A stretch of DNA of 64,000 nucleotides from Conexibacter arvalis (GCF_014199525.1 NZ_JACHNU010000001.1:1466182-1530181); one strand, 5' to 3'; counted from the stretch's first letter, positions 9,234-41,139 are shown. Notes: generated from the sequence alone by a model not told the origin. Numbers and translations are program-made.

Positions 9234-10622
9234 ATGCCCAAGGATCTTCGGACGTTCATCAAGCAGGTGGAGGAGGCCTACCCCTCCTCGTACCTCAAGA
9301 CCTCGAAGGAGGTCGACCCCCATCTCGAGCTGACCGGGGTCCTGCGCAAGTTCCAGGACGACGGCCAGTTCCCGATGGTCCTGTTCGAGAACGTCAAGGG
9401 CTGCGACGTCCCCGTCCTCGGCAACGCGCTCGGCCACCGCGACCGCCTCGGCCTGCTGTTCGACACCGACAGCGCCGGCCTCGCGCACGCCTATGACGAT
9501 CGCCAGGGCACGCTCATCCCGCCGGAGCGCGTCGAGACCGGCCCGGTCAAGGAGGTCATCCAGACCGGCGACGACGTCGACGTCACGAAGATCGCCAACA
9601 TCTTCCACTGCGGCGAGGACGGTGGCGAGTACATCTCCTCCGGCGTCACCGTCGCGCAGGACCCCGACAACGGCGCCTACAACGCCGGCATCTACCGCAT
9701 CCAGGTGATCGGCCCCAAGGAGCTGCGGCTCGACCCGGGCGCCTACTCGCACATCTGGCACATGCACCACAAGCAGGAGCAGCGCGATCAGCCGCTCGAG
9801 GTCGCGATCGTCATCGGTCACTACCCGACGATCTACATGGCCTCGCAGTACCGCGGCCCGCTCGAGGTCGACGAGATCGAGGTCGCCGGCGGCCTCGCCG
9901 GCGAGGCGGTCCGCATGTGCCCGTCGGAGACGCTCGGGATCGACGTCCCGGCCGACGCCGAGATCGTGATCGAGGGCAAGCTGCTGCCGCACGAGCGCAA
10001 GTGGGAGGGCCCGTTCGGCGAGTTCTCCTGGTACCTCGGCCCGGCGCACGACACGCTCGTCGTCGAGGTGACGGCGATCACCCGCCGCAGAGACGCGATC
10101 TACCAGGACGTCTTCAACGCCCACCCGGAGCACAACCTGATCGGCATGGTCGGCCGCGAGGCCAACCTGCTGAGCAAGGTGCGCGCGGTCGTGCCGTCGG
10201 TCAGAGCGGTCTCGATGCCGTTCTCGGCCTGCTGCCGCTTCGCCTGCTACGTCTCGATCGGCAAGGAGTACGACGGCCAGGCGCGCAACGCGGCGCTGAC
10301 CGCGCTCGGCGCCGACCCGTTCGTGAAGCTCTGCGTCGTGGTCGACGACGACATCGACCCGTACGACGAGATGAGAGTGATGTGGGCGGTCGCGACGCGC
10401 GTGCGCGCCGACAAGGACGTCATCGTCATCCCCGAGGCGTACACCTGCGAGCTCGACCCGACCGCGTACAGCATCGAGGACGACACGAGAAACGGCGCCC
10501 TCAACGCGAAGTGGATCATCGACGCGACGAAGCCGGTCGGGCTGCCGTTCCAGCAGGTCGCCGACGTCCCGGAGGAGGTCTGGAAGAACGTCAGACTCGA
10601 GGAGTTCTTCCCGGTCGGCTAG
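9234..10622 (+). CDS. UbiD family (prenyl-FMN dependent) decarboxylase
   Basis: 462 residues. UbiD enzymes reversibly decarboxylate aromatic, heteroaromatic or alpha,beta-unsaturated acids using prenylated FMN. The catalytic Arg-Glu-Glu triad seems intact: Arg155 in AGIYRIQVIG, Glu258 and Glu263 in WEGPFGEFSWY, with the same 5-residue spacing as in fungal Fdc1. AGGAG is placed seven bases before the ATG at 9234, and homology starts there, so the frame's earlier ATG at 9174 is rejected. It is a one-gene unit led by a box variant at 9201-9212, and its cofactor enzyme UbiX is encoded 27 kb downstream in the same island. The substrate (an aromatic acid) is inferred from context, not from sequence. 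Confidence 0.93.
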   Translation: MPKDLRTFIKQVEEAYPSSYLKTSKEVDPHLELTGVLRKFQDDGQFPMVLFENVKGCDVPVLGNALGHRDRLGLLFDTDSAGLAHAYDDRQGTLIPPERVETGPVKEVIQTGDDVDVTKIANIFHCGEDGGEYISSGVTVAQDPDNGAYNAGIYRIQVIGPKELRLDPGAYSHIWHMHHKQEQRDQPLEVAIVIGHYPTIYMASQYRGPLEVDEIEVAGGLAGEAVRMCPSETLGIDVPADAEIVIEGKLLPHERKWEGPFGEFSWYLGPAHDTLVVEVTAITRRRDAIYQDVFNAHPEHNLIGMVGREANLLSKVRAVVPSVRAVSMPFSACCRFACYVSIGKEYDGQARNAALTALGADPFVKLCVVVDDDIDPYDEMRVMWAVATRVRADKDVIVIPEAYTCELDPTAYSIEDDTRNGALNAKWIIDATKPVGLPFQQVADVPEEVWKNVRLEEFFPVG

Positions 10623-12904: not shown

Positions 12905-15275
12905 GCTGATCGGCCGCTCGGTCCCGCGCGTCGAGGACGAGCGCCTGCTGCGCGGCGAGGGCGCCTACGTCGACGACCTCCACCCGTCAGGCTGCAGCGA
13001 GGCCGCCTTCCTGCGCAGCCCGCAGGCGCACGCCCGGATCGTCTCGATCGACGTCGAGGAGGCGCGCTCGGCGCCCGGCGTGATCGCCGTCCTGACCGGC
13101 GCCGACCTCGCCGGCGAGCTGGAGCCGATGGTCTTCCAGATCGCGCGGGTCGTGCCCGAGACGGTCAGAGCGTCGACCGGCGCCGTCTCGCGGGTCCACC
13201 CGATGCCGGCGATCCCGGCCGACCGCGCCACCTACGTCGGCCAGCCGCTCGCGGTCGTCGTCGCGGAGTCGCGCTACCTCGCAGAGGACGCGCTCGAGCT
13301 GATCGAGCTGGAGCTGGAGCCGCTGCCGGCCGTCGTCGACCCGGAGGCGGCGCTGGAGCCCGGCGCGCCGCTGGTCGAGCCGGAGTGGGAGGACAATCTC
13401 GCGCTCGAGTACCGCTACAGAAGAGGCGACGTCGACGCCGCCTTCGAGCAGGCCGCGGTCGTCGTCGAGGAGGTCTTCCACTCGCACCGCCACGTCGCCT
13501 CGCCGATCGAGACGCGCGGCGTCGTCGCGACCGTCGACCCGCTCGACGGCACGCTGGCGGTCTCGGCCTCGACGCAGACGCCCCACCAGCTGCGCGACTT
13601 CCTCGCCGGCGCGCTGAGACGCGCCCCCGAGACGCTGCGGGTCCGCGCCCCCGACGTCGGCGGCGGCTTCGGCCCCAAGGGCGCGATCTACCCCGAGGAC
13701 CTCGTGATCCCGTACCTGGCGACGCGCGTCGGCCGCCCGGTCAAGTGGATCGAGGACCGCTCCGAGCACTTCGCCGCGACGACCCACGGGCGCGAGCAGG
13801 TCCATCGCATCGCGCTGGCCGCCGACGCCGACGGGCGGATCCTCGCCGTGCGCGACAGCATCGTCCACAACTGCGGCGCGTACCACACGCTCGGGCTGGT
13901 CGTCCCGTACAACACGCTCACGCACCTGATCGGCCCCTACGACGTGCCGGCCGTCGACGTGCGCCTGCGCGCGGCGATCACGAACACCGGCGTCGTCGCG
14001 CCGTACCGCGGCGCCGGCCGTCCCGAGGCCGTCTTCGCGATGGAGCGCGCCGTCACGCGGCTGGCGCGCGCGGTCGGGATCGACGCCGCCGAGCTGCGCG
14101 CGCGCAACCTGATCGCGCCCGAGGCGATGCCGTACGCGACCGGGATGATCTACCGCGACGGGACCGAGCAGGTCTACGACTCGGGCGACTATCCGAAGCT
14201 GCTCGCACGGGCGCGGGCGCTGGTCGAGGAGGAGCCGTGGGCCGAGCGCGCCGCCGGGCGCCGCGTCGGTGTCGGCTACGCCGCCTACGTCGAGGGGACC
14301 GGCGTCGGCCCGTTCGAGAGCGCGGCGCTGACCGTCCTCGGCGGCGGGCGCGTGCGCGTCGCGACCGGCGCCTCCTCGCAGGGCCAGAGCCACCGCACGA
14401 CGCTCGCGCAGATCGCAGCCGACGCGCTCGGCGTCCCGTTCGAGCGGATCGAGGTCGTCGGCGGCGACACGGCCGCGATCGCGGCCGGCTTCGGCACGAT
14501 CGCCAGCCGCAGCCTCGTCGTCGCCGGCAACGCGGTCGCGAAGGCGGCCGCCGAGCTGCGCGCCGCCGTGCTCGACGCCGCCGGCAGCCTGCTCGGCGCG
14601 CCGCCGGAGTCGTTGACGCTCGCCGACGGGACGATCCGCCCGCTCGACGGCGACGGTCCCGAGCTGCCGCTCGCCGACCTCGCCGGAGCGCTGTCGCCGT
14701 TCAACCCGCGGCGGCCGGCCGGCGCGCCGACCGAGCTGCACGCCAAGGCGATCTTCAACCCGGGACCGGTCACCTACGCCGCCGGCGTCCACGCCGCCGT
14801 CGTCGCGGTCGACCCGGCGACCGGCGCCGTCGAGATCCTCCGCTATGCCGTCTCACACGACTGCGGCCGACCCGTCAACCCCGCGATCGCCGAGGGCCAG
14901 GTGCTCGGCGGCGTGATGCAGGGGATCGGCGGCGCGCTCTACGAAGAGCTCGTCTACGACCCCGACGGGCAGCTGCGCACCGGGAGCTTCATGGACTACC
15001 TCCTGCCGACCGCGGGCGAGATGCCCGAGATCAGACTCGTGCACGTCGACTGCCCGACGCCGCTCAACCCGCTCGGGGTCAAGGGCCTCGGCGAGGGCGG
15101 CGCGATCGGGCCGCCGGCCGCGATCGCGAACGCCGTCGAGGACGCGCTCGCCGATCTCGGCGTCGTCGTCCGCGCCTGCCCGCTGACGCCCGACCGCGTG
15201 CGCGCGCTGATCCGCGCCGGCGGCGGCGACGGGGGCGCGACGGCCGGTGCCGGCGCCACCGAGGTGGCGGCATGA
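12897..15275 (+). CDS. Molybdopterin-binding subunit of xanthine dehydrogenase family (CoxL-like hydroxylase)
   Basis: 792 residues. N-terminal Ald_Xan_dh_C-type domain (RSVPRVEDERLLRGEGAYVDD), then the cofactor blocks DVGGGFGPKG, VAPYRGAGRPEA, QGQSHRTTLAQIAADAL and the C-terminal catalytic glutamate in KGLGEGGAIGPP. It lacks the AYxCSFR loop of true form I CO dehydrogenase, so it is a form II type hydroxylase. The family adds water-derived OH to an electron-poor carbon, typically of an N-heteroaromatic ring or an aldehyde. With Rieske and UbiD enzymes nearby, a heteroaromatic acid is a reasonable substrate class, not proven. The ATGA overlaps connect it with coxS-like and the reductase. Confidence 0.93.
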   Translation: MSELIGRSVPRVEDERLLRGEGAYVDDLHPSGCSEAAFLRSPQAHARIVSIDVEEARSAPGVIAVLTGADLAGELEPMVFQIARVVPETVRASTGAVSRVHPMPAIPADRATYVGQPLAVVVAESRYLAEDALELIELELEPLPAVVDPEAALEPGAPLVEPEWEDNLALEYRYRRGDVDAAFEQAAVVVEEVFHSHRHVASPIETRGVVATVDPLDGTLAVSASTQTPHQLRDFLAGALRRAPETLRVRAPDVGGGFGPKGAIYPEDLVIPYLATRVGRPVKWIEDRSEHFAATTHGREQVHRIALAADADGRILAVRDSIVHNCGAYHTLGLVVPYNTLTHLIGPYDVPAVDVRLRAAITNTGVVAPYRGAGRPEAVFAMERAVTRLARAVGIDAAELRARNLIAPEAMPYATGMIYRDGTEQVYDSGDYPKLLARARALVEEEPWAERAAGRRVGVGYAAYVEGTGVGPFESAALTVLGGGRVRVATGASSQGQSHRTTLAQIAADALGVPFERIEVVGGDTAAIAAGFGTIASRSLVVAGNAVAKAAAELRAAVLDAAGSLLGAPPESLTLADGTIRPLDGDGPELPLADLAGALSPFNPRRPAGAPTELHAKAIFNPGPVTYAAGVHAAVVAVDPATGAVEILRYAVSHDCGRPVNPAIAEGQVLGGVMQGIGGALYEELVYDPDGQLRTGSFMDYLLPTAGEMPEIRLVHVDCPTPLNPLGVKGLGEGGAIGPPAAIANAVEDALADLGVVVRACPLTPDRVRALIRAGGGDGGATAGAGATEVAA

Positions 15276-17456: not shown

Positions 17457-17840
17457 ATGAGCGCGGATCGGGCTGATCGAGACGACGCGCTCGACCGGGC
17501 CGGCGCCGCCGGCGGCAGCGATGCCGCCCGCGCCGGCGACGCGGCTGGCGATGGCGGTCGGACCGGCGCCGCCGACGCCCTGCCCGCGAGCGCGAACGGC
17601 GGGCCGTCCGACGGGCGGGCGCGGCTGCGACTCGCGAACGAGTTCGGCACGGTCGCCGTCGAGGTCGACGAGCGGGCCAACGGGCCGCGGTTGCGGATCG
17701 AGGATCTGCGCAGCGGTCGCGTCATCCACCTCGACCCGCTCGAGCTGGCGAGCCTCACGTGGCTCACGCACGAGCGGCTCGGGCCGTTCCTCGACCCGAG
17801 CCAGACCGGTTGGCGCAGCGACGAAGGAGCATGGGAGTGA
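17457..17840 (+). CDS. Small protein of unknown function in front of the dioxygenase
   Basis: 127 residues that I do not recognise. Residues 1-50 are Ala/Asp/Gly-rich, probably disordered. Residues ~55-127 look like one small folded domain: RLRLANEFGTVAVEVDERANGP, then LRIEDLRSGRVIHLDP and LASLTWLTHERLGPFLDPSQ. Its stop codon overlaps the GTG of the dioxygenase alpha subunit (GTGA), so the two are made in step. The ATG at 17457 is preceded by AAAGGCGAGG; the ATG at 17439 is an alternative. The context suggests an accessory or stabilising partner of the dioxygenase; that is inference only. Confidence 0.65.
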   Translation: MSADRADRDDALDRAGAAGGSDAARAGDAAGDGGRTGAADALPASANGGPSDGRARLRLANEFGTVAVEVDERANGPRLRIEDLRSGRVIHLDPLELASLTWLTHERLGPFLDPSQTGWRSDEGAWE

Positions 17841-19030
17841 GCACGACGACGGACCCCGCCGGCCTCATCACCGAGGACTGGCGCATTCACGGAAGCATCT
17901 ACACGTCGCAGGCGATCTTCGAGGAGGAGCAGCGCAAGCTGTTCCACGGCCCGTGGCTGTACGTCGCGCACGAGAGCGAGCTGCGCGAGCCGGGCGACTA
18001 CAAGACGACGCACGCCGGCATCCAGCCCGTGATCGTCACCCGCGGCGCCGACGACGGCGAGCTGCACGTGATGCTCAACCGCTGCCGCCACCGCGGTGCG
18101 ACCGTCTGCCAGGCGACCCGCGGCAACGCGAACTTCTTCCGCTGCGCGTACCACGGCTGGACGTACAGAAACGACGGCCCGCTGCGCGGCATGACCTACG
18201 ACGACGCCTATCCGGAGCTCGACCGCTCCAAGCTCGGGCTCGTCAAGCTGCCGCGCGTCGACACCTTCGCCGGCTTCGTCTTCGCCAGCTTCGCCGAGGA
18301 GGGCCCGTCGCTCGAGGAGTACCTCGGCAACGCCAAGCCCTACCTGAAGATCATCTCCGAGCAGGGACCGGAGGGGATCCGCCTCTCGGCCGGCGCCCAC
18401 CAGCTCAGCTACGGCGGCAACTGGAAGCTGCAGGTCGAGAACACGATCGACAACTACCACTTCGGCTTCGTCCACCGCAGCTTCCTCGACGTGCTCGCCG
18501 ATCGCATCGGCCAGGCGCCGCCGATCATGCAGAGAATCATGTTCGACGAGAGCTACCGCACGATCGACCTCGGCAACGGCCACTCGGTCCACGAGTTCGG
18601 CGACCCGCGCACGGGCAACAACGGCGGGCAGCTCGGCGACCTGCCGTTCAACCTGATCGTCTTCCCCAACCTCTGCTTCGTCGGCGCGCAGCTGCGGCAC
18701 GTCCTGCCGAAGGCGGCCAACCGCACCGAGGTCCAGCTCTACCCGATGCTGCACGAGGGCGCCAGCGACGACTACAACGAGGCGATCCTGCGCACCCACG
18801 AGGGTTTCTACGGCCCGGCCGGGATGGGCGGCCCCGACGACGTCGAGATCGCCTTCGAGCGCGTCACCGACGGCATGCAGGCGACGGAGGAGGACTGGCT
18901 TGTGATGAGCCGCGGCATGCACCGCGAGAGAGAGGGCGAGAACGGGACCCTGATCGGCCACTCCGCCGACGAGGTGCCGCAGCGCGCCTTCTACCGGCAG
19001 TGGCGCCGGCTGATGGGGGCCGCGGCATGA
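17837..19030 (+). CDS. Rieske aromatic ring-hydroxylating dioxygenase, alpha subunit (system 1)
   Basis: 397 residues. Rieske centre: CRH at residues ~78-80 (NRCRHRGATVC) and CAYH about 20 residues later (FFRCAYHGWTY). The mononuclear iron site is in NTIDNYHFGFVHRSF (two His, D in the preceding bridge). It is like the benzoate/anthranilate-type group. It should dihydroxylate an aromatic acid with O2 and reduced ferredoxin. I start at GTG 17837, which has AAGGAG at seven bases and overlaps the previous stop, rather than at ATG 17831. Followed by its beta subunit with an ATGA overlap. Confidence 0.92.
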   Translation: MSTTTDPAGLITEDWRIHGSIYTSQAIFEEEQRKLFHGPWLYVAHESELREPGDYKTTHAGIQPVIVTRGADDGELHVMLNRCRHRGATVCQATRGNANFFRCAYHGWTYRNDGPLRGMTYDDAYPELDRSKLGLVKLPRVDTFAGFVFASFAEEGPSLEEYLGNAKPYLKIISEQGPEGIRLSAGAHQLSYGGNWKLQVENTIDNYHFGFVHRSFLDVLADRIGQAPPIMQRIMFDESYRTIDLGNGHSVHEFGDPRTGNNGGQLGDLPFNLIVFPNLCFVGAQLRHVLPKAANRTEVQLYPMLHEGASDDYNEAILRTHEGFYGPAGMGGPDDVEIAFERVTDGMQATEEDWLVMSRGMHREREGENGTLIGHSADEVPQRAFYRQWRRLMGAAA

Positions 19031-19551
19031 GCGCCTCCGAGACGGTCCGCCCCGTCGCGGGCTCCCAGGACCCGGCGCTGCTCGCGGACGTCGCCGCCTT
19101 CCTCTACCACGAGGCCGAGCTGCTCGACGCGCTGCGGCTCGAGGAGTGGCTCGAGCTGTACGCGGAGGACGCGGTCTACTGGATCCCGCAGGGGCCCGAC
19201 GCCGACCCGCGCGTCGACGTCCAGCTGCTGCTCGACGACCGCACGCGGCTGCGCGAGCGCGTGCTGCGGCTCAGCAGCGGCTTCGCCTACTCGCAGGATC
19301 CGGCGTCGCGCACGATCCACCTGATCGGCAACGTGCGGATCGCCGGCGACGGCGAGGTCGAGCCGCCGGCGCTCGACGTCCGCTCGGTCCAGCAGGTGAC
19401 CGAGGTCCGGCGCGGCCGCCAGCTCCAGTACGTCGGCCACTTCCGCCACGTGCTCTCCCCGAGCGGCGACGGCGGCTGGACGATCCGCCGCAAGGAGGTC
19501 CGGCTCGCCAACAGCGACCTCCCGCTCGGCAACGTCACCTTCCTGATCTGA
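19027..19551 (+). CDS. Ring-hydroxylating dioxygenase, beta subunit (system 1)
   Basis: 174 residues of the SnoaL/NTF2-like fold. Typical landmarks: FLYHEAELLDALRLEEWLELY, DAVYWIP, DRTRLRERVLRL and IRRKEVRLANSDLPL at the C-terminus. It stabilises the alpha3beta3 hexamer and has no metal of its own. It begins within the alpha stop codon. No electron-transfer genes follow, so it must use the reductase (15272) and ferredoxin (34194) encoded elsewhere in the island. Confidence 0.92.
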   Translation: MSASETVRPVAGSQDPALLADVAAFLYHEAELLDALRLEEWLELYAEDAVYWIPQGPDADPRVDVQLLLDDRTRLRERVLRLSSGFAYSQDPASRTIHLIGNVRIAGDGEVEPPALDVRSVQQVTEVRRGRQLQYVGHFRHVLSPSGDGGWTIRRKEVRLANSDLPLGNVTFLI

Positions 19552-30088: not shown

Positions 30089-30976
30089 ATGGATCACCAG
30101 CTGTTCGACCACTCGCCGATCATCCGCCGGCCGCGCGTGGAGCTGCCCGACGGCAAGCGGCTCGCCGTCTGGGTCGGGGTCAACGTCGAGCACTACCGCT
30201 TCGGCCAGCAGGCGCTCAGCCTCGCGCCGTTCACCGCGCAGCTCGTGCCCGACCCGCTCAACCACGGCTGGCGCGACTACGGCGCCCGCGTCGGCCTGTG
30301 GCGGCTGGCCGACCTGCTGGCGCGCCACGGCTTCCCGCTCAGCGCGATCACGAACGCGGCCGTCTTCGAGCACTACCCGGAGATCGCCGAGGAGGGCCGC
30401 GCGCGCGGCTGGGCGTGGGTCGGCCACGGCGTCGACAACTCGTCGTGGTGGGTCGGCATGGGCCCCGACGACGAGCGCGCCGCGCTGCAGGGAATCGTCT
30501 CCTCCTTCCGCGACGCGACCGGCGCCGCGCCGAGAGGCTGGCTCGGCCCGGCGCTGACGTCGACCGAGAACACGACCGCGCTGCTCGCCGAGCTGGGCTT
30601 CACGTACAGCCTCGACTGGGCCAACGACGACCAGCCCTACCCGCTCAACGTCCCGAGCGGCCGGCTGCTGGCGCTGCCGTACGCGAGCGAGGTCAACGAC
30701 ATCCCCGCGTTCGTGCTCCACCACCACACCGGCGAGCAGTTCGCGCAGTCGGTGATCGACCAGTTCGACCAGCTCTACGAGGAGGGCGCCGACAGCCTGC
30801 GCGTGATGGGGATCGGGCTGCACCCGTTCCTCGTCGGCCAGCCCTTCCGGGCGCGGCCGTTCGCGCGGGCGCTGGCGCACATCGCCAGCCACGACGACGT
30901 CTGGCTGGCGACCAGCGACGAGATCGCCGACTGGGCGCTCGGCGCGCTCCCCGCGCCGGAGGCGACGACGGCATGA
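30089..30976 (+). CDS. Polysaccharide deacetylase-like (CE4/PuuE-type) hydrolase
   Basis: 295 residues. Central NodB-type fold: AVFEHYPEIAEEGRARGWAWVGHGVDNSSWW, GWLGPALTSTENTTALLAELGFTYSLDW and a C-terminal LGLHP-like IGLHPFLVGQPFRARPF. This is the CE4 subfamily that includes allantoinase PuuE and similar amidohydrolases of cyclic or acyl amides. Metal ligands are not all identified with certainty. It may hydrolyse an amide or ring amide of the pathway. AAGGAGCGG lies six bases before the ATG; overlaps the next gene. Confidence 0.8.
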   Translation: MDHQLFDHSPIIRRPRVELPDGKRLAVWVGVNVEHYRFGQQALSLAPFTAQLVPDPLNHGWRDYGARVGLWRLADLLARHGFPLSAITNAAVFEHYPEIAEEGRARGWAWVGHGVDNSSWWVGMGPDDERAALQGIVSSFRDATGAAPRGWLGPALTSTENTTALLAELGFTYSLDWANDDQPYPLNVPSGRLLALPYASEVNDIPAFVLHHHTGEQFAQSVIDQFDQLYEEGADSLRVMGIGLHPFLVGQPFRARPFARALAHIASHDDVWLATSDEIADWALGALPAPEATTA

Positions 30977-31449
30977 GCGCCTCGCCCACCGTCGCCGCCG
31001 TCCGCGCGCACCTCGCGGCCGAGGACGCCGGCGACGCCGGGCGGGCGCTGGAGCAGTTCGCCGACGACTGCTGGTACGCGATCCCGGCGCAGGGCGTCGA
31101 GCTGCGGGGGAAGGCGGCGGTGCGCGACCACCACGAGCGCCTGCTGCGCGCCTTCCCCGACCTGCGCAACGTCGTGCTCGGCTGCCACGACGCCGGCGAC
31201 CGCGTCTTCGCGCGGCTGCGCGTCGAGCGGACCCACCGCGGCGCGTGGGGCGGCGTGGCGGCGACCGGCCGCAGGCTGGCGACCGCCGCGCTGGCCGAGT
31301 TCGTGATCGCGCCCGACGGGCGGCTGGAGGCCGAGGTCGTCCACGCCAACCCGCTGGAGGCGCTCCACCAGCTCGGCGCCGTCCCGACGACGAACGCCTT
31401 CGAGCTGGCCGCCGCCTGGCGCGAGCTGGCGGGGGAGGGGGCGCGATGA
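30973..31449 (+). CDS. SnoaL/NTF2-like (nuclear transport factor 2) family protein
   Basis: 158 residues. Ester cyclase-like NTF2 fold: RALEQFADDCWYAIPAQGVELRGKAAVRDHH, then RLLRAFPDLRNVVLGCHDAGDRVFARL. The family includes polyketide cyclases and steroid isomerase-like proteins. The conserved acid/His pair is likely but the substrate is unknown. Start overlaps the previous stop (ATGA), and the next SDR does the same. Confidence 0.78.
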   Translation: MSASPTVAAVRAHLAAEDAGDAGRALEQFADDCWYAIPAQGVELRGKAAVRDHHERLLRAFPDLRNVVLGCHDAGDRVFARLRVERTHRGAWGGVAATGRRLATAALAEFVIAPDGRLEAEVVHANPLEALHQLGAVPTTNAFELAAAWRELAGEGAR

Positions 31450-32326: not shown

Positions 32327-32356
32327 TGCCTTGCCGGTCTCGATTGGAGGGATGAG

Positions 32357-33661
32357 TTGACGCACGTCGCGATCAATGTCGAGGAGCGCTTGCGGGCGAC
32401 CGTGCGCCCGGAGACGGGAGAGATCCCGCTCTTCACCTACGCCGACCCCGAGGTCTACAAGCTCGAGCTCGAGCGCATCTTCGGACGCGTCTGGCTGTTC
32501 GTCGCGCACGAGTCCGAGCTGGAGGAGGAAGGCGCCTTCGTCGTGCGGCAGATGGGCGAGCAGTCGGTCATCGTCGCCCGCGGCGACGACGGCGAGATCC
32601 GCGTCTTCCTCAACGCCTGCCGCCACCGCGGGATGAAGCTGACCTGCGAGGACCGCGGCGTCACGTCGTACTGGCGCTGCCCGTACCACGGCTTCACGTT
32701 CGCCAACCACGGCAACTTCATGGGCACGCCGTTCGAGCGCGCCGCCTACCCGCCCGACGGGCTCGACCGCGAGCGCCTCAGACTGATCGAGGCCCGCTGC
32801 GACAGCTACGCCGGGCTGATCTTCGCCACCTGGACCAGAGAGGGCGAGGGCCCGTCGCTGCCCGACTTCCTCGGCGACATGCGCTGGTACCTCGACATCT
32901 TCGCCGGCCGCGCGCGGATGGAGCTGCTCGGCGAGGCGCAGCGGTGGGTCGTGCCGTCGTCGTGGCGGCTGCCGTCGGAGAACTTCGCCTCCGACGCCTA
33001 CCACACCGCCACCGCCCACGCCTTCCTCTCCAGACTGGGACTGGTCAGAAGCGTCGACTTCGGCAAGGACGGCTACCACGTCGACGCCGGCGGCCACGGC
33101 CTCGGGATGGGCGTCCACGACGACGACCCGGGCTCGTACTTCCCCGACGAGCTGGAGGCGGAGTACCGCTCGCGGCTCGACGACGACCAGCTGGCGCTGC
33201 TGCACCGGATCAAGAACTTCCACGGCAACGTCTTCCCGAACCTGTCGTTCCTGATCCCGAACTTCATCCCGGTCGACGGCAGACTGGTCACCGGCATGAT
33301 GCTGCGCGTCTGGCAGCCGATGGGGCCCGACAGGATGCAGGCCTGGTCGTGGTTCCTGGTCGAGAAGGACGCGCCCGAGTGGTGGAAGACGCTCGGCCGC
33401 AGAATGTACGTCCAGACCTTCAGCTCCGGCGGCATGTTCGACCAGGACGACACGGAGGTGTGGGAGGCGCAGACGGCCGTCGCCGTCGCCGCGCGCTCGC
33501 GCTCCGACGAGGTCATGCTCGATTACACGATGGGCCTGGACGCGGAGCCGCTGACCGACTTCCCCGGCCCCGGCACCGTCTACGCCGGCAAGTTCAGCGA
33601 GGCCGCCGGCCGCAGCTACTACCGCAGATGGCTCGACCTGCTGCTGGAGGAGGGGAGATGA
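32357..33661 (+). CDS. Rieske aromatic ring-hydroxylating dioxygenase, alpha subunit (system 2)
   Basis: 434 residues. Rieske centre: CRH in LNACRHRGMKLTC and CPYH in WRCPYHGFTF. The mononuclear iron motif is SENFASDAYHTATAHAF (Asp-x2-His-x4-His), as in the biphenyl/naphthalene/phthalate 3,4-type group, so this differs from system 1. I start at TTG 32357 because GGAGG stands six bases upstream; the ATG at 32352 is out of frame and stops at once. Beta subunit, ferredoxin and an SDR (34393) follow in the same operon, a full dioxygenase-dihydrodiol dehydrogenase set apart from the reductase. Confidence 0.92.
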   Translation: MTHVAINVEERLRATVRPETGEIPLFTYADPEVYKLELERIFGRVWLFVAHESELEEEGAFVVRQMGEQSVIVARGDDGEIRVFLNACRHRGMKLTCEDRGVTSYWRCPYHGFTFANHGNFMGTPFERAAYPPDGLDRERLRLIEARCDSYAGLIFATWTREGEGPSLPDFLGDMRWYLDIFAGRARMELLGEAQRWVVPSSWRLPSENFASDAYHTATAHAFLSRLGLVRSVDFGKDGYHVDAGGHGLGMGVHDDDPGSYFPDELEAEYRSRLDDDQLALLHRIKNFHGNVFPNLSFLIPNFIPVDGRLVTGMMLRVWQPMGPDRMQAWSWFLVEKDAPEWWKTLGRRMYVQTFSSGGMFDQDDTEVWEAQTAVAVAARSRSDEVMLDYTMGLDAEPLTDFPGPGTVYAGKFSEAAGRSYYRRWLDLLLEEGR

Positions 33662-34197
33662 GCGCCGGTTCGATCTGGGTGCTGCCCGCGGAGGCCGTCT
33701 CGCCGGCGGCCCGCCTGGCGGCCGAGGACTTCCTGATCGCAGAGGCGGCGATGCTCGACGAGCGCCGCTTCGACGAGTGGATCGAGCTGTTCACCGACGA
33801 CGTCGAGTACATCGTGCCGGTGCGCACGATCCGCCGCGTCGGCAACGGCTCCGACATCGACTGGGAGAGCCGCCACTACGACGACAACAAGGCGTCGCTG
33901 AGCCTGCGCGTGCGCCGGCTGTCGACCGACGTCGCGTGGTCGGAGGATCCGCCGTCGTTCACCCGCCGCGTGCTCGGCAACTTCCGCTACACGCCCGGCC
34001 CGGCGGCGACCGAGCTGACCGTCAAGACCAACCTCCTGCTGTTCCGCAGCCGCGGCACGACCGGCGATCACGACCTGATCGCCGGCGAGCGCACCGACGT
34101 GCTGCGGCTGGTCGAGGGGGAGCTGAAGATCGCCAAGCGCCACGTCGTCCTCGACCAGGCGATGCTCGGCACGAAGAACCTGGGAGTGTTCCTGTGA
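33658..34197 (+). CDS. Ring-hydroxylating dioxygenase, beta subunit (system 2)
   Basis: 179 residues of the NTF2-like fold: FLIAEAAMLDERRFDEWIELFTDDVEYIVPV, ASLSLRVRRLSTDVAWSEDPP and RRLSTDVAWSEDP in the middle, KRHVVLDQAML at the end. Pairs with the upstream alpha subunit, ATGA overlap. The next gene starts inside its stop (GTGA). Confidence 0.92.
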   Translation: MSAGSIWVLPAEAVSPAARLAAEDFLIAEAAMLDERRFDEWIELFTDDVEYIVPVRTIRRVGNGSDIDWESRHYDDNKASLSLRVRRLSTDVAWSEDPPSFTRRVLGNFRYTPGPAATELTVKTNLLLFRSRGTTGDHDLIAGERTDVLRLVEGELKIAKRHVVLDQAMLGTKNLGVFL

Positions 34198-34388
34198 GAG
34201 TCACCGTCGACCTGACGAAGTGCAACGCCTACGCGAACTGCCTGATGGAGGCGCCCGAGGTGTTCGACCTCGACGGCGCCAGCGGCCTCGCCGTCGTCAC
34301 GCAGGAGCAGCCGCCTGAGGAGCTGCGCGCGAGAGTCGAGGCGGCCGCGCGCGTCTGCCCCGTCCAGGCGATCACGGTCGAGGACTGA
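34194..34388 (+). CDS. Ferredoxin, single [3Fe-4S] or [4Fe-4S] type
   Basis: 64 residues from a GTG start. The cluster ligands fit C-x5-C (KCNAYANCLMEAPEVFDL) with a third Cys in VCPVQAI at the C-terminus. This is the small ferredoxin type common beside actinobacterial P450s and Rieske dioxygenases. It takes electrons from the FAD-dependent reductase (15272-16474) and passes them to the dioxygenases; it is the only ferredoxin in the island. Confidence 0.9.
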   Translation: MRVTVDLTKCNAYANCLMEAPEVFDLDGASGLAVVTQEQPPEELRARVEAAARVCPVQAITVED

Positions 34389-34392
34389 GCCG

Positions 34393-35136
34393 ATGTCCGG
34401 CGACGCCGTCGACCGCCCCGATCCGCTCGCGGCGCTGCGCGGCGCGCCGGTCGTCGTCTCCGGCGGCGCCGGCGGCATCGGCGTCGCGCTGCTCGGCGCG
34501 CTCGAGCGGGCCGGTCTGCGGACCGCCTCGATCGACCTGCGCGCCAGCGGCGCCGCGACGCTCGACCTCGTCGCCGACGTCGCCGATCCGGCCGCCGTCG
34601 AGCAGGCGGTGGCGCAGGTCGCGGAGGAGCTGGGCGCGCCGGGCGCGCTCGTCTCCGCCGCCGGCGTCGTCTCCGAGCACCCGCTCGGCGAGCTGGCGCC
34701 CGAGGAGTGGCGCCGGGTCGTCGACGCCTCGCTGACGAGCGGCTTCCTGCTCGCGCGCGCCGTCGCGCCCCACCTCGTCGCACGCGGCGGCGGACCGATC
34801 GCGATGGTCTCGACCGGCTACGCGACGAAGGGGATGCTCCACGGCCCCCACTACGCCGCCGCGAAGGCCGGCGTCGAGGCGCTCGTGAAGTCGCTCGCGC
34901 TCGAGCTCGGGCCGAGCGGCGTGCGCGTCAACGCGGTCGCGCTCGGGCCGGTCCGCACGCCGATGCTCGACGCCAAGCCCGGCTTCGACGAGGCGGCGGT
35001 CGCCGCGACGCTGCCGCTGCGGCGGGTCGGCACGGTCGCCGACGCCGTCGACCCGCTGCTGTTCCTGCTGGGCGAGGGGAGCGGGTGGGTGACCGGCCAG
35101 GTGCTGCACGTCAACGGCGGGATGCTGATGCCATGA
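34393..35136 (+). CDS. Short-chain dehydrogenase/reductase (C), possible cis-dihydrodiol dehydrogenase
   Basis: 247 residues. Rossmann loop VVVSGGAGGIGVALLGAL, ALVSAAGVV, catalytic MVSTGYATKGMLHGPHYAAAKAG with Tyr-x3-Lys and a C-terminal VLHVNGGMLMP. Position after alpha, beta and ferredoxin fits a dihydrodiol dehydrogenase that rearomatises the diol, though sequence alone does not prove it. Ends in an ATGA overlap with the isomerase. Confidence 0.88.
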   Translation: MSGDAVDRPDPLAALRGAPVVVSGGAGGIGVALLGALERAGLRTASIDLRASGAATLDLVADVADPAAVEQAVAQVAEELGAPGALVSAAGVVSEHPLGELAPEEWRRVVDASLTSGFLLARAVAPHLVARGGGPIAMVSTGYATKGMLHGPHYAAAKAGVEALVKSLALELGPSGVRVNAVALGPVRTPMLDAKPGFDEAAVAATLPLRRVGTVADAVDPLLFLLGEGSGWVTGQVLHVNGGMLMP

Positions 35137-36278
35137 GCGCCGCCGCGGGCACGACCCAGGGGGCGACGCTGCGCGCCCGCAAGGAGGAGCATCAGCGGCT
35201 GGCCGCGACCGACGCGGTCCAGACGCGGACCCCGCCCGGGTGGGGCGACATCCACCTCGTCCACGAGGCGCTGCCCGAGGTCGACCTCGACGCCGTCTCG
35301 CTGGAGACCGAGCTGCTCGGCAGGACGCTGCGCGCTCCGCTGGTGATCGCCGGCATGACCGGCGGCCATGACGGCGCGACCGCGGTCAACGCGGCGCTGG
35401 CGCGCGCCGCCGAGCGCCACGGCCTCGCGATCGGCCTCGGCAGCCAGCGGGCCGCGCTCGTCGACCCGACGCTGGAGCCGACCTATGCGGTCGTGCGCGA
35501 GCACGCGCCGAGCGCGTTCGTGATCGGCAACGTCGGCGCCGCGCAGCTGGTCGAGCAGGGGGGCAAGGGCCCGCTGACCTTGGCGCAGCTGCGGCGGACG
35601 GTCGAGATGATCGACGCCGACGCGCTCGCGATCCACCTCAACGTGCTGGAGGAGAGCGTCCAGCCGGAGGGCGACCGCCGCGCCCGCGGCGTCGCCGACG
35701 CGATCGCCGAGCTGGTCGGGACGCTCGGCGTGCCGGTGATCGTCAAGGAGACCGGCGCCGGGATCGCGCGCACGACCGCCGAGCGCCTCGCCGCCCTGGG
35801 GGTCGGCGCGCTCGACGTCGGCGGCCTCGGCGGCACCAGCTTCGCGCTCGTCGAGCGGCTGCGCGCGCAGCTCCAGCACGACCAGCGCGGGATCGAGCTC
35901 GGCGAGGACCTCGCCGAGTGGGGGATCCCGACCGCCGTCTCGCTTGCCGGGGCGCGCACCGCCGGGCTGCCGCTGATCGCGACCGGGGGGATTCGCTCCG
36001 GCCTCGACGCGGCGAAGGCGCTGGCGCTCGGCGCGACCGCCGTCGGCGTCGCACGGCCGCTGCTGCTGGCCGCGCTCGACGGCGACGCGGCGCTCGACGC
36101 CTGGATCGGCCGCTTCCTGGAGACGTTGCGGACGGTGCTGCAGCTGACCGGCTGCACGACCGCCGCGCAGCTGCGCGAGCGCCCGCTGGTCGTCGGCGGC
36201 GAGACGCGCGCCTGGATCGACGACCTTGGCTACGGCCCGCTGCGGCCGGCACCCGCGGCCTCGGAGCCCGGCCGATGA
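35133..36278 (+). CDS. fni: Type 2 isopentenyl-diphosphate delta-isomerase
   Basis: 381 residues. Family motifs complete: RKEEHQRLA at the N-terminus, GMTGGHDGATAVNAAL, GLGSQRAAL, GNVGAAQLVEQ, QPEGDRRARG, VIVKETGAGI, DVGGLGGTSFALVE and IATGGIRSGLDAAKALALGATAVGVARPLL (cited in parts). It is an FMN enzyme converting IPP to DMAPP. It is unusual in a catabolic operon. It is coupled by ATGA overlaps to the SDR before and the PPOX gene after, and UbiX is next but one. I infer it supplies dimethylallyl groups for prenyl-FMN. Confidence 0.85.
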   Translation: MSAAAGTTQGATLRARKEEHQRLAATDAVQTRTPPGWGDIHLVHEALPEVDLDAVSLETELLGRTLRAPLVIAGMTGGHDGATAVNAALARAAERHGLAIGLGSQRAALVDPTLEPTYAVVREHAPSAFVIGNVGAAQLVEQGGKGPLTLAQLRRTVEMIDADALAIHLNVLEESVQPEGDRRARGVADAIAELVGTLGVPVIVKETGAGIARTTAERLAALGVGALDVGGLGGTSFALVERLRAQLQHDQRGIELGEDLAEWGIPTAVSLAGARTAGLPLIATGGIRSGLDAAKALALGATAVGVARPLLLAALDGDAALDAWIGRFLETLRTVLQLTGCTTAAQLRERPLVVGGETRAWIDDLGYGPLRPAPAASEPGR

Positions 36279-36748
36279 GCCGCGCGCTCGACCCGGTCGT
36301 TCCGCCGCCGCTGCGCGCGCTGCTCGACGCCGACCCGGGCGCCGAGGCGGCCGACGGCTTCACGCTGCTGCTGCTGACGACGCGCGCCGACGGCTGGCCC
36401 CACCAGGCGATGCTGAGCGTCGGCGAGGTCGCCTGCGCCGGCGACGATCGGCTGGCGCTCGCGGTCTGGCCGTCGTCGAGCTCGACCGCCAACCTGCGCG
36501 AGCGCGGCCGCGCGACGCTCACCGCCGTCGTCGACGGCGTCAGCTACCTGCTGCGGCTCGACGTGCGGGAGGCCGGCGAGCTGGCGACCCCGCTGGGCGG
36601 CACGCTCGCGCGCTTCGACGCGCGCGTCGTCGCCGCCGTCGCCGACGAGGCGCCGTACGCGCGCCTGGAGGACGGCGTCCGCTTCACGCTCAACGACCGC
36701 GACGCGACGCTGACGCGCTGGCGCGAGGTGAAGGAGGCGCTGCGCTGA
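36275..36748 (+). CDS. Pyridoxamine 5'-phosphate oxidase-like flavoprotein
   Basis: 157 residues of the split-barrel FMN-binding fold (PPOX): FTLLLLTTRADGWPHQAMLSVGEV, LALAVWPSSSSTANLRERGRATLTAV, and LDVREAGEL. It probably binds FMN or F420; the role may be reduction of FMN or of a pathway metabolite. Co-translated with the isomerase (ATGA). The 87-base gap to ubiX holds two hairpins. Confidence 0.75.
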   Translation: MSRALDPVVPPPLRALLDADPGAEAADGFTLLLLTTRADGWPHQAMLSVGEVACAGDDRLALAVWPSSSSTANLRERGRATLTAVVDGVSYLLRLDVREAGELATPLGGTLARFDARVVAAVADEAPYARLEDGVRFTLNDRDATLTRWREVKEALR

Positions 36749-36754
36749 TGAGCG

Positions 36755-36816
36755 CGCAATCGCTCGGCCTGAGGCCTCGGATTGCGTCGGAAGAACTCGC
36801 CGGAGGCTCGTTCTTC
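36755..36816 (+). promoter_or_regulatory. Two consecutive hairpins in the PPOX-ubiX gap
   Basis: First hairpin: arms CGCAATC and GATTGCG (36755-36786) with an imperfect GC inner stem. Second: arms GAAGAAC and GTTCTTC (36790-36816) with an inner GCC/GGC. They could attenuate transcription or reset translation before ubiX; no T-run follows. Confidence 0.4.
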
Positions 36817-36835
36817 CCGGCTGGAAGGTCGCCGA

Positions 36836-37435
36836 ATGAGCGCCTCTGAGCGTCCGAGGCGCCTGATCGTCGGGATCAGCGGCGCGAGCGGCCCGCAGCT
36901 CGGGGTGCGGATCGTCGAGGTGCTGCGCGAGCGGACCGACGTCGAGATCCACCTGATCCTCAGCAGAGGGGCGCGCGCGACGATCGCCTACGAGACCGAC
37001 CGCGACCCCGACGAGGTCGTCTCGCTCGCGCACGTCGTCCACGACGAGCGCAACCTCGCGGCGTCGATCGCCAGCGGCACGTTCGTCACCGACGGGATGG
37101 TGATGGCGCCGTGCAGCATCAAGACGCTCAGCGCGGTCGCCAACAGCTTCAACGACAACCTGCTCGTGCGCGCCGCCGACGTCTGCCTGAAGGAGCGGCG
37201 GCCGCTCGTGCTGCTCGTGCGCGAGACGCCGCTCCACGCCGGCCACCTGCGCCTGATGGCGCAGGCGACCGAGCAGGGCGCGGTCGTGCTGCCGCCGGTG
37301 ATGGCCTTCTATCACCGGCCGGCGACGGTGCAGGAGCTGATCGACCACACGGTCGTCAAGACGCTGGACCAGTTCGGGATCCATCTCGACCTCGTCCGGC
37401 GATGGGAGGGGCCGCAAGGCCAGCAGGGGGCGTAG
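36836..37435 (+). CDS. ubiX: Flavin prenyltransferase UbiX
   Basis: 199 residues. FMN-binding GISGASGPQLGVRIVEVL at the N-terminus, VMAPCSIKTLSAVANSFNDNLLVRAADVCLKE (core, quoted here in part) and VLLVRETPLHAGHLRLM, all typical of UbiX/Pad1. It attaches a dimethylallyl unit to FMN to form prenyl-FMN for UbiD. GGAAGGT stands before the ATG at 36836, and the frame's upstream ATG (36782) adds non-homologous sequence. It ends the second Rieske operon and is presumably there to activate the UbiD at 9234. Confidence 0.93.
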   Translation: MSASERPRRLIVGISGASGPQLGVRIVEVLRERTDVEIHLILSRGARATIAYETDRDPDEVVSLAHVVHDERNLAASIASGTFVTDGMVMAPCSIKTLSAVANSFNDNLLVRAADVCLKERRPLVLLVRETPLHAGHLRLMAQATEQGAVVLPPVMAFYHRPATVQELIDHTVVKTLDQFGIHLDLVRRWEGPQGQQGA

Positions 37436-37549: not shown

Positions 37550-37593
37550 CGTCAGGACCCGCGAGACAGTGGGAGACGGTGAGGAGAGAAGAG

Positions 37594-38418
37594 ATGACTG
37601 AGGCCGCGACGGCCCCACATGACCACGGCCCGGTGCAGGCGCGACCGACCGCCGTCGCCGTGCGCGGGGTCAGCAAGACGTTCGGCAACGGCGCCTCGGC
37701 GGTCACCGCCCTCGACGACGTCTCCTTCGACGTCCCGCAGGGCAGCTTCCTCTCGGTGCTCGGCCCCTCCGGCTGCGGCAAGTCGACGCTGATGCGGCTG
37801 GTCGCCGGCCTCCAGCCGGCCAGCACCGGCACGATCGAGGTCGCCGGCGGGACGCCGGACGAGATGCGCCGCGCGCGCGAGTTCGGGATCGTCTTCCAGC
37901 AGCCGGTGCTGTTCGACTGGCGCACCGTCGAGCAGAACGTCGGCCTGCCGCTGCAGATCATGGGCAGACCGAAGGGCGAGGCGCGCGAGCGGGTCGAGCA
38001 CATGCTCGAGCTGGTCGGCCTCTCGGACTTCCGCAAGCACCGCCCGTGGCAGCTCTCCGGCGGCATGCAGCAGCGCGTCTCGATCGCCCGCGCGCTCACC
38101 TTCGCGCCGCCGTTCCTGCTGATGGACGAGCCGTTCGGCGCGCTCGACATGATGACGCGCGAGAGAATGCAGACCGAGCTGCTGTCGATCTGGGCCAGCA
38201 ACCCCGGGACGACGGTGATCTTCATCACCCACTCGATCTCCGAGGCGGTGCTGCTGTCGGATCGGATCGTCGTGATGAGCGCCCGCCCCGGCCGCGTCCT
38301 GAAGGTGATCGACGTCGACCTGCCGCGCCCGCGCACCGACGAGACGCGCGACTCCAAGGAGTTCGTCGACGTCGAGGCCGAGATCCGCCAGCTGATCTTC
38401 TCGCAGGAGGGCAGATGA
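37594..38418 (+). CDS. ABC importer ATP-binding protein, NitT/TauT type (system 1)
   Basis: 274 residues. Walker A LGPSGCGKSTL (residue ~60), Q-loop FGIVFQQPVLF, signature LSGGMQQRVS, Walker B PFLLMDEPFGAL and H-loop FITHS. Like SsuB/TauB/NrtD, it drives import through the two permeases that follow. ATG 37594 is placed after GAGGAGAG, beginning a compact ATPase-permease-permease-binding protein operon. Confidence 0.92.
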   Translation: MTEAATAPHDHGPVQARPTAVAVRGVSKTFGNGASAVTALDDVSFDVPQGSFLSVLGPSGCGKSTLMRLVAGLQPASTGTIEVAGGTPDEMRRAREFGIVFQQPVLFDWRTVEQNVGLPLQIMGRPKGEARERVEHMLELVGLSDFRKHRPWQLSGGMQQRVSIARALTFAPPFLLMDEPFGALDMMTRERMQTELLSIWASNPGTTVIFITHSISEAVLLSDRIVVMSARPGRVLKVIDVDLPRPRTDETRDSKEFVDVEAEIRQLIFSQEGR

Positions 38419-39218
38419 GCCTCGCACCCGGCACGAAAGGGCGCGAGCGCCTGATCACCGCGGCGGTCGTCGTCGGGGTGCTGGCGCTGTGGTACGTCGC
38501 CGCCCTGCTGGTGCAGTCGGGCGACGACCCGCTCGCCGCCTCGAAGCTGCCCTACCCGCACGGCGTGATCGAGCAGATCGTCGACAACCGCTCGGTGCTC
38601 GCCGAGGCCGGCTGGACGACGCTCAAGCAGGCGCTGATCGGCTTCGCCGTCGGCGCGGTCGTCGGCATCTTCTCCAGCGTCGTGATGGCGCAGGCGGCGT
38701 GGCTGGAGGCGGGCGTGATCCCGTTCATCCTCGCCGCGCAGATGATCCCGATGATCGCGCTCGTCCCGATCGCGCAGAACATCTTCAAGAACGACGACGT
38801 GACGCGCATCTTCATCGCCGCGTTCATCACCTTCTTCTCGGTCTCGATCGCGGTCCTGCGGGGGCTCAAGTCGGCGCCGCCGCCGGCGTACGAGCTGATG
38901 TCCTCCTACAACGCCGGGCGCGCGAAGACGCTGCGCTACCTGCGGCTCCCGGCGGCCGTGCCGATGATGTTCACCGGCCTGCGGATCGCGGCGCCGCTCA
39001 GCCTCGTCGGCTCGGTGCTGGTCGACCTCTCCGGCGCCCAGTCGGGCCTCGGCTACCTGATGCTCGCCGCGATCACCTTCGGCTCCGAGGGGGCCGCCGT
39101 CCTGTGGGGCGCGATGATCGTGCTGCTGGCGCTCGGCTTCCTGATGACGCAGGCGGTCGTGCTGGTCGAGCGGATCGTCGCCCCCTGGCAGCCCGACCTC
39201 CGTCACGGGAAGGCCTGA
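38415..39218 (+). CDS. ABC importer permease, NitT/TauT type (system 1, first)
   Basis: 267 residues with about six membrane helices. N-terminal anchor LITAAVVVGVLALWYVAALLV and the family EAA-like loop ELMSSYNAGRAKTLRYLRLPAAVPMMFTGLRI, which contacts the ATPase. Overlaps the ATPase gene by ATGA; the second permease starts one base after its stop. Confidence 0.92.
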   Translation: MSLAPGTKGRERLITAAVVVGVLALWYVAALLVQSGDDPLAASKLPYPHGVIEQIVDNRSVLAEAGWTTLKQALIGFAVGAVVGIFSSVVMAQAAWLEAGVIPFILAAQMIPMIALVPIAQNIFKNDDVTRIFIAAFITFFSVSIAVLRGLKSAPPPAYELMSSYNAGRAKTLRYLRLPAAVPMMFTGLRIAAPLSLVGSVLVDLSGAQSGLGYLMLAAITFGSEGAAVLWGAMIVLLALGFLMTQAVVLVERIVAPWQPDLRHGKA

Positions 39219-39219
39219 G

Positions 39220-39999
39220 ATGAGCACCGCAACCGCCACGCGCGTGCGCAACGTCGTCGCGCCGCTCGTCATCTTCGTCGTCTTCGTCTCGCTCTGGCAG
39301 GCGCAGGTCTTCAACGACCTGTTCGGCCTCGAGACGTTCGCGATCCCGCTGCCCGACCAGATCGTCGAGGCGGCCGGCGACAACACCGCCGAGCTGTGGA
39401 GAGCGTTCGGCCAGACCTTCACCGCGGTCCTGCTCGGCTACTCGCTCGGCAACGGCCTCGGCTTCGTGCTCGCGCTGCTGCTGCTGGCGCTGCCGCACGG
39501 CGCCGCCCGCCGCGCCGGCGCCGCCTTCACCGCATTCCAGGCGCTGCCGATCATCGCGATCGCGCCGCTGGTCGCGCTGTGGGTCCCCGACAGCCTCTGG
39601 TTCAAGGCCTGCGTCGTGACGATCATGGTCTTCCCGTCGATGCTCGTCTACGCCTGGCGCGGGATGAGCGGCGTGCCGCCGGAGTCGCTGGAGCTGATGG
39701 CCTCCTACCGCGCCTCGACGCGGCAGATCCTGACCGGCCTGCGGATCCCCGCCGCGGTCCCGCAGATCTTCACCGCGCTCAAGTACACGACCGTGCTCGC
39801 GCTGATCGGCGTCGTCGTCTGCGAGATCCTCAAGTCCCACGACGGCCTCGGCTACGAGATCCACGACGCGCTGCAGCTGTTCAGCACGCCGCTGGCGTGG
39901 GCCGCCGTCGGGATCCTCGCGCTCGTCGGCATAGCGACGTACACGGTGCTCGTCGTGCTCGAGCGCGCGCTCTTCCCCTGGGCGGCCCGGCGTGGTTGA
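39220..39999 (+). CDS. ABC importer permease, NitT/TauT type (system 1, second)
   Basis: 259 residues, about six helices, with EAA loop LELMASYRASTRQILTGLRIPAAVPQIFTALKY. Two distinct permeases in one NitT/TauT operon imply a heterodimer. The Rieske/UbiD context suggests an aromatic or heteroaromatic carboxylate as cargo; this is inference. Confidence 0.92.
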   Translation: MSTATATRVRNVVAPLVIFVVFVSLWQAQVFNDLFGLETFAIPLPDQIVEAAGDNTAELWRAFGQTFTAVLLGYSLGNGLGFVLALLLLALPHGAARRAGAAFTAFQALPIIAIAPLVALWVPDSLWFKACVVTIMVFPSMLVYAWRGMSGVPPESLELMASYRASTRQILTGLRIPAAVPQIFTALKYTTVLALIGVVVCEILKSHDGLGYEIHDALQLFSTPLAWAAVGILALVGIATYTVLVVLERALFPWAARRG

Positions 40000-40050
40000 G
40001 GGCCGCGCCGGCTCGCTTGTCGCACTCCGTACATCCACAAGGAGGGTGCT

Positions 40051-41139
40051 GTGAGATCTATCCACTGGCTGCTGGCCGGCGCCGCGGCGCTGGCGGTCGC
40101 CGTCGGCGGCTGCGGGAGCAGCGACGACGACGGCGGCGGCAGCGCGACGGCGGCCGCCACGTCGGCGTCGACGACGGCCACCGCGACGGCCGAGAGATGC
40201 GAGAACGTCAAGGCGACGTACCAGCTGAGCTTCTTCCCGAACGCGCAGTACGTCGGTGCGCTGGTCGCCTTCGACAGGGACTACTTCGCCGAGGAGGGCC
40301 TCGACGTCGAGATGAAGCCGGGCGGTCCGACCGTCAACCCGGCGCTCCAGCTCGCGCAGGGCAACGTCGACTTCGCCTCGATGCCGCTCAGCGACGCCTA
40401 CAACGCCGCCGCCAACGGCGGCAGAATCGTCCAGATCGGCCAGGCGACGCAGCAGAACCCGCTGCGCTACATCTCCTTCAAGGACGAGGTCAGACTGGAG
40501 TCCCCGGCTGACCTGAAGGGCAAGTCGGTCGGCGCTCAGCAGGCCGGCAACCTCTCGCCGGAGCTGAAGGGCATGCTCGACGAGGCCGGGCTGTCGGACT
40601 CCGACATAACGATCAGACAGATCTCCTTCAACGTCGACGACTTCGTCGCCAGACGGGTCGAGGTCTTCCCGGCGCGCGTCTACGCCCACTTCTCGATGCT
40701 CGAGGCGAAGGGCTTCAGATACCCCGACGACTTCGACACGCTCGACCCGAACGAGTACGGCGCCGGCGTCGCCGACGAGGGCGAGTACGTCAACGCCGGC
40801 TTCCACGCCGAGCACCCGGAGGCGGCCGCCTGCTTCCTGAGAGCGGTCAAGAGAGGCTGGGCGACGGCGCTCGCGGACGAGGCGGCGGCGGTCGCGGCCG
40901 TCACGAGATACTCGCCGAGAGGCGCGTTCACCGCGCGCGACATCGAGGTCGGCGTCAGAGAGATGCTGAAGCTCGGGTCGACGACCGCCGACGGCGAGAG
41001 AGCGGAGCCGCTCCATCTCGACGTCGACTACATCACCGAGTCGGTGAGACTCCTGCACGACGCGGGCGTCGTCAAGGGCGATGTCGACCTCGACACGTTC
41101 ATCGACGTCGGCCCGCAGGAGGCGGTCGAGGGCAACTGA
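40051..41139 (+). CDS. ABC importer substrate-binding lipoprotein, NMT1/THI5-like (system 1)
   Basis: 362 residues from a GTG start with AAGGAGGG at six bases. Signal sequence residues 1-20 with lipobox VGGC, Cys21, then a Ser/Asp/Gly-rich linker. The mature part carries the NMT1-like pattern (YQLSFFPNAQYVGALVAFDRDYFAEEGLDVEMKPGG; DLKGKSVGAQQAGNL). This family binds thiamine pyrimidine-like or aromatic anions in some species. Arginines are almost all AGA, unlike the CGC/CGG habit of typical genes here. MFS gene follows after 14 bases. Confidence 0.88.
   Translation: MRSIHWLLAGAAALAVAVGGCGSSDDDGGGSATAAATSASTTATATAERCENVKATYQLSFFPNAQYVGALVAFDRDYFAEEGLDVEMKPGGPTVNPALQLAQGNVDFASMPLSDAYNAAANGGRIVQIGQATQQNPLRYISFKDEVRLESPADLKGKSVGAQQAGNLSPELKGMLDEAGLSDSDITIRQISFNVDDFVARRVEVFPARVYAHFSMLEAKGFRYPDDFDTLDPNEYGAGVADEGEYVNAGFHAEHPEAAACFLRAVKRGWATALADEAAAVAAVTRYSPRGAFTARDIEVGVREMLKLGSTTADGERAEPLHLDVDYITESVRLLHDAGVVKGDVDLDTFIDVGPQEAVEGN

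Follow-up and report, generated by a model that had tools for sequence, protein, structure and literature searches.

The 64,000-nucleotide stretch of Conexibacter arvalis DNA studied here (NZ_JACHNU010000001.1:1466182-1530181; hereafter the window) carries on its plus strand a gene run composed of a Rieske oxygenase set, an SDR oxidoreductase, a relative of type 2 isopentenyl diphosphate (IPP) isomerase (IDI2), a PPOX-like flavoprotein, and the flavin prenyltransferase UbiX. From sequence comparisons, we consider it moderately probable that the last three genes form a supply and maturation cassette for prenylated flavin mononucleotide (prFMN), the cofactor of UbiD, inside an aromatic-degradation gene cluster. 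The initial annotation had proposed a supply cassette in which the isomerase would provide UbiX with dimethylallyl diphosphate (DMAPP). The genes on which the argument turns are as follows.

34393..35136, plus strand: SDR oxidoreductase; its stop codon shares bases with the IDI2 start
35133..36278, plus strand: Glu-type IDI2 of 381 amino acids (TIGR02151; aligned to 2zru, 1p0k, and 1vcf)
36275..36748, plus strand: PPOX-like flavoprotein, candidate PhdC-family prFMN maturase (PDB sequence and fold matches to PhdC)
36836..37435, plus strand: UbiX flavin prenyltransferase (NF004685, TIGR00421; His171 is codon 37346-37348)
9234..10622 (from an ATG) or from 9174 (a TTG), plus strand: UbiD-family decarboxylase, presumed prFMN user (three UbiD Pfam domains, TIGR00148)

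Both the SDR-IDI2 and the IDI2-PPOX junctions are ATGA overlaps, the latter at 36275-36278, and the translational coupling previously assigned to the isomerase gene can thus be seen in the sequence itself. A gap of 87 bases separates the PPOX gene from UbiX. Profile searches of the window genome (5.2 Mb; completeness, 99%) returned one IDI2 over the cutoff, one UbiX, one UbiD, and one IspH, and no IDI1. The genome is assigned to the class Thermoleophilia from its kinship to Conexibacter sp. CPCC 205762.

Protein families and active-site residues of the cassette

The identity of the window IDI2 as a type 2 IPP isomerase is borne out at the family level by a score of 369.7 bits against the NCBIfam equivalog TIGR02151 (cutoff, 281.3), with profile positions 2-336 of 338 covered. 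Like the isomerases of S. shibatae (2zru), B. subtilis (1p0k), and T. thermophilus (1vcf), the protein is full length and keeps the diphosphate, flavin, and Mg sites; the columns for RKxxH, MTGG, GSQR, HxN, Glu161, and Lys193 (S. shibatae) are invariant or nearly so in alignment A2. It differs from them in having prFMN genes rather than isoprenoid genes as its linked neighbors and in lacking the conserved active-site Gln160 (a number counted off the alignment to 2zru), with which Glu173 of the window protein (codon 35649-35651) aligns in comparison with all three structures. Across the Glu-type IDI2 proteins, the columns matching the diphosphate, flavin, and metal sites are invariant except at the Gln position, and the invariance of the substrate-binding residues favors the same diphosphate substrate. 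The N5 of the reduced flavin is the favored acid/base in IDI2, and most replacements of conserved residues by alanine leave 1-35% of catalytic efficiency (PMC3509576); for these reasons, Glu may be compatible with isomerase activity, or it may mark a shift of substrate or chemistry. Judging from family and conserved sites, Glu-type IDI2 probably isomerizes IPP and DMAPP with reduced flavin mononucleotide (FMN), and this conversion is the least certain step of the proposal because Glu replaces Gln.

The window UbiX scores 259.4 bits against NF004685 (cutoff, 188) and 233.8 against TIGR00421 (cutoff, 108.9), and it contains the GASG and RETPL motifs. At the selector position, where F181 of PaUbiX appears to block DMAPP and A. 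niger UbiX has Gln (PMC6541611), the window protein has His171, not Phe. E. coli O157:H7 UbiX (1sbz) likewise has His at the selector (His164) and uses both dimethylallyl phosphate (DMAP) and DMAPP (PMC6541611); it differs in that no pairing with an IPP isomerase gene is known for it. The selector is His in every UbiX linked to a Glu-type IDI2 (11 proteins, that of the window among them), and Phe is found in 15 of the 19 lower-scoring, probably housekeeping UbiX proteins sampled. By this residue, the window UbiX likely accepts DMAPP. The DMAPP-using UbiX assumed by the initial annotation thereby gains support, and, given His171, the scheme does not have to invoke a phosphatase. DMAP can be made in E. 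coli by NudJ and further Nudix enzymes (PMC12359138).

The PPOX protein falls below the Pfam cutoff for PNPOx_N (21.1 versus 28.1), and its sequence matches in the PDB are limited to PhdC entries (9nk0-9nk4, 9o5m, and 9srg/9srj), with a family profile lifting the match to 5.8e-12. PhdC, the protein of 9SRG and 9SRJ, serves as maturase in the phdABC operon (PMC13040415). The top eight fold matches of the AlphaFold model (predicted local distance difference test score, 91.5) are all PhdC entries, and Glu47 of PhdC, which lies near C1' of prFMN, corresponds to the Glu of an SVGEV motif that is invariant in nine homologues. The sequence alignment ends short of the C-terminal ExW motif (Glu136 and Trp138 in PhdC); the family has an invariant C-terminal Trp, whose correspondence to Trp138 is unproved. 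By sequence and fold match, the PPOX protein is a candidate PhdC-like prFMN maturase. PhdC turns the prFMN radical into iminium prFMN, and when it was coexpressed in cells, the activity of E. coli UbiD rose 10.4-fold (PMC13040415). In another genome of the same family (G324), a PPOX homologue (56%) follows UbiX without IDI2 (L069:1501-2761).

Recurrence of the linkage in two phyla

IDI2 is present in 26 of the 399 genomes of the class and absent from the other 373. The neighborhoods of all 26 were examined, and UbiX lies within approximately 0.6 kb of IDI2 in nine of them, the window genome included. In each of these nine UbiX-linked proteins the HxNxxQE motif reads HxNxxEE, and the unlinked IDI2 proteins of the class have Gln, the exceptions being one heavily degenerate sequence and two proteins with His. 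A PPOX gene stands no more than 70 bases from IDI2 in seven of the nine (the L052 protein is only ~34% identical), and in L045 it is 6.2 kb away. In the nearest named relative (L006), genes of 45-83% identity run in the same order: thiamine pyrophosphate enzyme, aldehyde dehydrogenase, deacetylase, Rieske alpha and beta subunits, ferredoxin, IDI2, PPOX, UbiX, and ATP-binding cassette (ABC) importer. Several genera share the IDI2-PPOX-UbiX order (IDI2, 52-77% identical; UbiX, 64-82%), far beyond chance, which makes the gene set a real one. A motif scan across Actinomycetota hit one genome of 396, that of the window alone, and a plasmid search gave 168 records, every one below 60% identity, with the best places mostly haloarchaeal.

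The Glu motif was used as a prediction in 390 Chloroflexota genomes, with a DNA pattern for HxNxxEExxQPEG and the reversed pattern as a control. Nine genomes contained the Glu pattern and none the reversed one. At eight of the nine loci, UbiD lies at 0.1-2.6 kb, and UbiX was found at 6.4-7.2 kb in two; the ninth gene is the end of a 4.2-kb contig. A Gln control pattern occurred in 89 of the same 390 genomes, and 3 of the 40 Gln-type loci fetched had UbiX or UbiD within 8 kb. Over both phyla, UbiX or UbiD is within 8 kb of 17 of the 18 Glu-type IDI2 genes; the figure for other Gln- or His-type loci is 2 of 18, both His-type. Because the loci were assigned from tblastn hits under E-value limits, divergent UbiX genes may have been overlooked in Chloroflexota. 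The survey for IDI2 (fni) beside UbiX in UbiD-bearing clusters, which the initial annotation had called for, is thus positive in two phyla, and its worry that other genomes might lack the association proved unfounded.

The setting of these genes varies. In one Chloroflexota genome (L118), Glu-type IDI2 abuts a class III coenzyme A (CoA)-transferase gene, and the genes for UbiD and an NMT1-type binding protein come next; in another (L125) it lies 81 bases from UbiD, and the protein is placed among unlinked Gln types. In two further Chloroflexota genomes, a PhdC-like gene lies in tandem with Gln-type IDI2, and two UbiD genes are nearby (L191:8473-10020 and L192:7949-9492); the PhdC-like protein is 30-32% identical to the window's PPOX, and this pairing with a maturase-like gene is independent of the Glu-type recruitment. 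At L186:7872-9599, 103 bases separate a Gln-type IDI2 from a UbiX gene in head-to-head orientation. As these Gln types show, IDI2 was recruited to prFMN loci more than once, with or without Glu. Separately, IDI2 homologues at L058:9038-10012 and L061:9065-9946 have His for the catalytic-site Gln and Tyr for the motif His; they lie about 5 kb from UbiD, with a second UbiD and a UbiX slightly further away.

UbiD and the catabolic surroundings

The N-terminal, central, and C-terminal UbiD Pfam domains of the window UbiD are all over their cutoffs, as is TIGR00148, and the gene lies 24.5 kb from IDI2. In L044, L050, and L051, a UbiD 82-84% identical to it shares the locus with the cassette, at 0.8-6.6 kb, which ties the distant window gene to the cassette. 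Its closest solved relative is 6h6v, which we take to be HmfF, a furandicarboxylate decarboxylase. The larger neighboring gene sets are listed below.

11488-15275: molybdenum hydroxylase set (domain searches)
32327..34388, plus strand: Rieske ring-hydroxylating oxygenase alpha and beta subunits and ferredoxin, in the same gene run as IDI2
37579..41139, plus strand: ABC importer (ATPase, two permeases, and NMT1/THI5-type binding protein), downstream of UbiX

The cluster also holds a glyoxalase/extradiol-type protein and hydrolases besides the NMT1/THI5-type importer, and it has two ring-hydroxylating oxygenase systems, as a long open frame (window 17521-19551) ends in a second dioxygenase beta-subunit domain. 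Near UbiD, a MarR-type regulator is fused to a GNAT acetyltransferase domain (7314-8216, minus strand). An ARAGORN call for tRNA-Arg at 30906-30996 (minus strand), antisense to a deacetylase/SnoaL junction, is probably a spurious hit in coding sequence of very high GC content.

Proposed cofactor supply and its alternatives

In the reading that we favor, Glu-type IDI2 would convert IPP to DMAPP, as its family suggests, and UbiX would join DMAPP, the donor to which His171 points, to FMNH2 to give prFMNH2. Oxidation of the prFMN radical by the PhdC-like protein would then yield iminium prFMN, which UbiD (9234-10622) could use to decarboxylate or carboxylate a catabolic intermediate, with cassette and UbiD presumably coregulated. 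All of the support for this is genomic, coming from gene order, copy number, protein families, linkage, the Glu and His residues, and the PhdC fold. These data uphold the supply function first proposed; the PhdC-like maturase and the Glu-for-Gln change had formed no part of that proposal, and the isomerase activity is hence probable. The closest known system is the phdABC operon of Mycolicibacterium fortuitum (UbiD, UbiX, and PhdC), in which UbiX also stands beside a PhdC-family protein and serves a UbiD (PMC13040415). That operon has three genes and no IPP isomerase, whereas in the window a Glu-type IDI2 overlaps the maturase gene and UbiD is 24.5 kb off. In Lactobacillus plantarum, lpdB-lpdD similarly has a small accessory gene cotranscribed with UbiX and aiding a UbiD, but LpdD is a prFMNH2-binding chaperone of another kind, and no isomerase gene is reported there (PMC10865409).

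Several points weigh against this reading. The methylerythritol phosphate (MEP) pathway already yields DMAPP, and the need for an extra supply is not obvious; IspH makes IPP and DMAPP together, and an isomerase is dispensable in MEP organisms for that reason. Glu in the IDI2 active site could, by its position, lower or change activity. Other high-scoring UbiX proteins that are not beside IDI2 carry His or Gln at the selector, so acceptance of DMAPP would not set the cassette apart. Most Chloroflexota Glu-type loci show UbiD but no UbiX or PPOX gene in the pieces fetched. Finally, on a 40-row tree built with the trait residue masked, the Glu/Gln state changes about three times, leaving only 2-3 independent pairs. 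Fisher's test on the raw counts gives a p of 1e-11, a value that relatedness inflates and on which no weight is placed; since the sequences are related and the Glu state has changed so seldom, raw statistics overstate independence. Over random pairings the linkage goes with Glu in most and never the opposite way, with too few pairs for a sign test. A single clade of Glu types, which an early 41-sequence tree had shown as a single change, was broken up once Chloroflexota Gln neighbors were added and is rejected by the approximately unbiased test (p 0.0007).

A tentative alternative is that the Glu-type protein is a repurposed IDI2, no longer mainly an IPP isomerase, whose FMN barrel and C5 pocket act elsewhere in prFMN biology, be it in turning isopentenyl phosphate into DMAP, in making or guarding prenylated flavin, or in maturation, with the new Glu as acid/base. 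The Gln/Glu difference does track prFMN linkage, also inside one clade with nearby unlinked Gln types, and the flavin N5 of IDI2 lies 3-4 Å from the C5 substrate and forms adducts with substrate analogues (PMC3509576). Retention of the RKxxH, GSQR, HxN, Glu161, and Lys193 positions, however, suggests that the diphosphate substrate is the same; moreover, Gln-type IDI2 occurs in similar loci (L186, L191, and L192), and the cassette already has a maturase candidate. With similar reserve, the Glu types may be seen as a functional IDI2 subclass in which Gln160 became Glu repeatedly on recruitment to UbiD/UbiX and which would carry out a step of prFMN biosynthesis other than plain isomerization of IPP, such as direct provision of DMAP or a reaction on the prenylated flavin. 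We consider it improbable that the isomerase belongs to the catabolic pathway, recycling C5 units from a prenylated or terpenoid substrate, for example, with the nearness of UbiX as a by-product. The cassette is indeed inside a catabolic cluster with dioxygenases and an importer, but the other catabolic genes differ by locus (the Rieske set here, CoA-transferase in L118) while the prFMN link through UbiX or UbiD stays, which favors a cofactor role.

The window genome has no other IPP isomerase, and the gene might be read as an ordinary isoprenoid isomerase that stands here by chance. The initial annotation had held that a sole isomerase would be a housekeeping one: the protein is indeed the only isomerase, with one IDI2 and no IDI1, yet the housekeeping role does not follow, given that IspH is present and IDI2 is rare in the class. 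IDI1 is over the cutoff in 1 of the 17 genomes sampled in the family, and the window genome is among the 16 without it. A housekeeping isomerase was rejected on the grounds that most relatives lack IDI2 and most sampled family genomes lack IDI1; taken with IspH, the 373 of 399 and 16 of 17 genomes make IDI2 an accessory gene. Adjacency in two phyla also speaks against a chance placement, which we regard as very improbable. Anhydromevalonate phosphate is decarboxylated by a UbiD relative in the archaeal version of the mevalonate pathway, and IDI2 might adjoin a UbiD acting as an isoprenoid enzyme; UbiD relatives are indeed found at 3.7 kb from IDI2 in Bathyarchaeota (two loci, L012 and L013). 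This explanation is scarcely credible for the window, whose genome has IspH and whose UbiD is nearest to 6h6v and part of a catabolic cluster.

A full-text search, whose coverage largely leaves out subscription journals, found no paper tying IDI2 to prFMN supply. What is new here suggests that the known UbiD/UbiX/PhdC operon type has been joined by a dedicated IDI2 relative. Outside E. coli, little is understood of where UbiX obtains its dimethylallyl donor, and a large number of UbiD enzymes show no activity when produced in foreign hosts. The cassette offers a ready gene set for attempts at activating such enzymes, and the Gln and Glu active sites form a natural series that bears on the mechanism of IDI2. 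That an IDI2 relative, a maturase, and a UbiX of the DMAPP type recur together in one operon suggests local supply and ripening of the cofactor in some bacteria.

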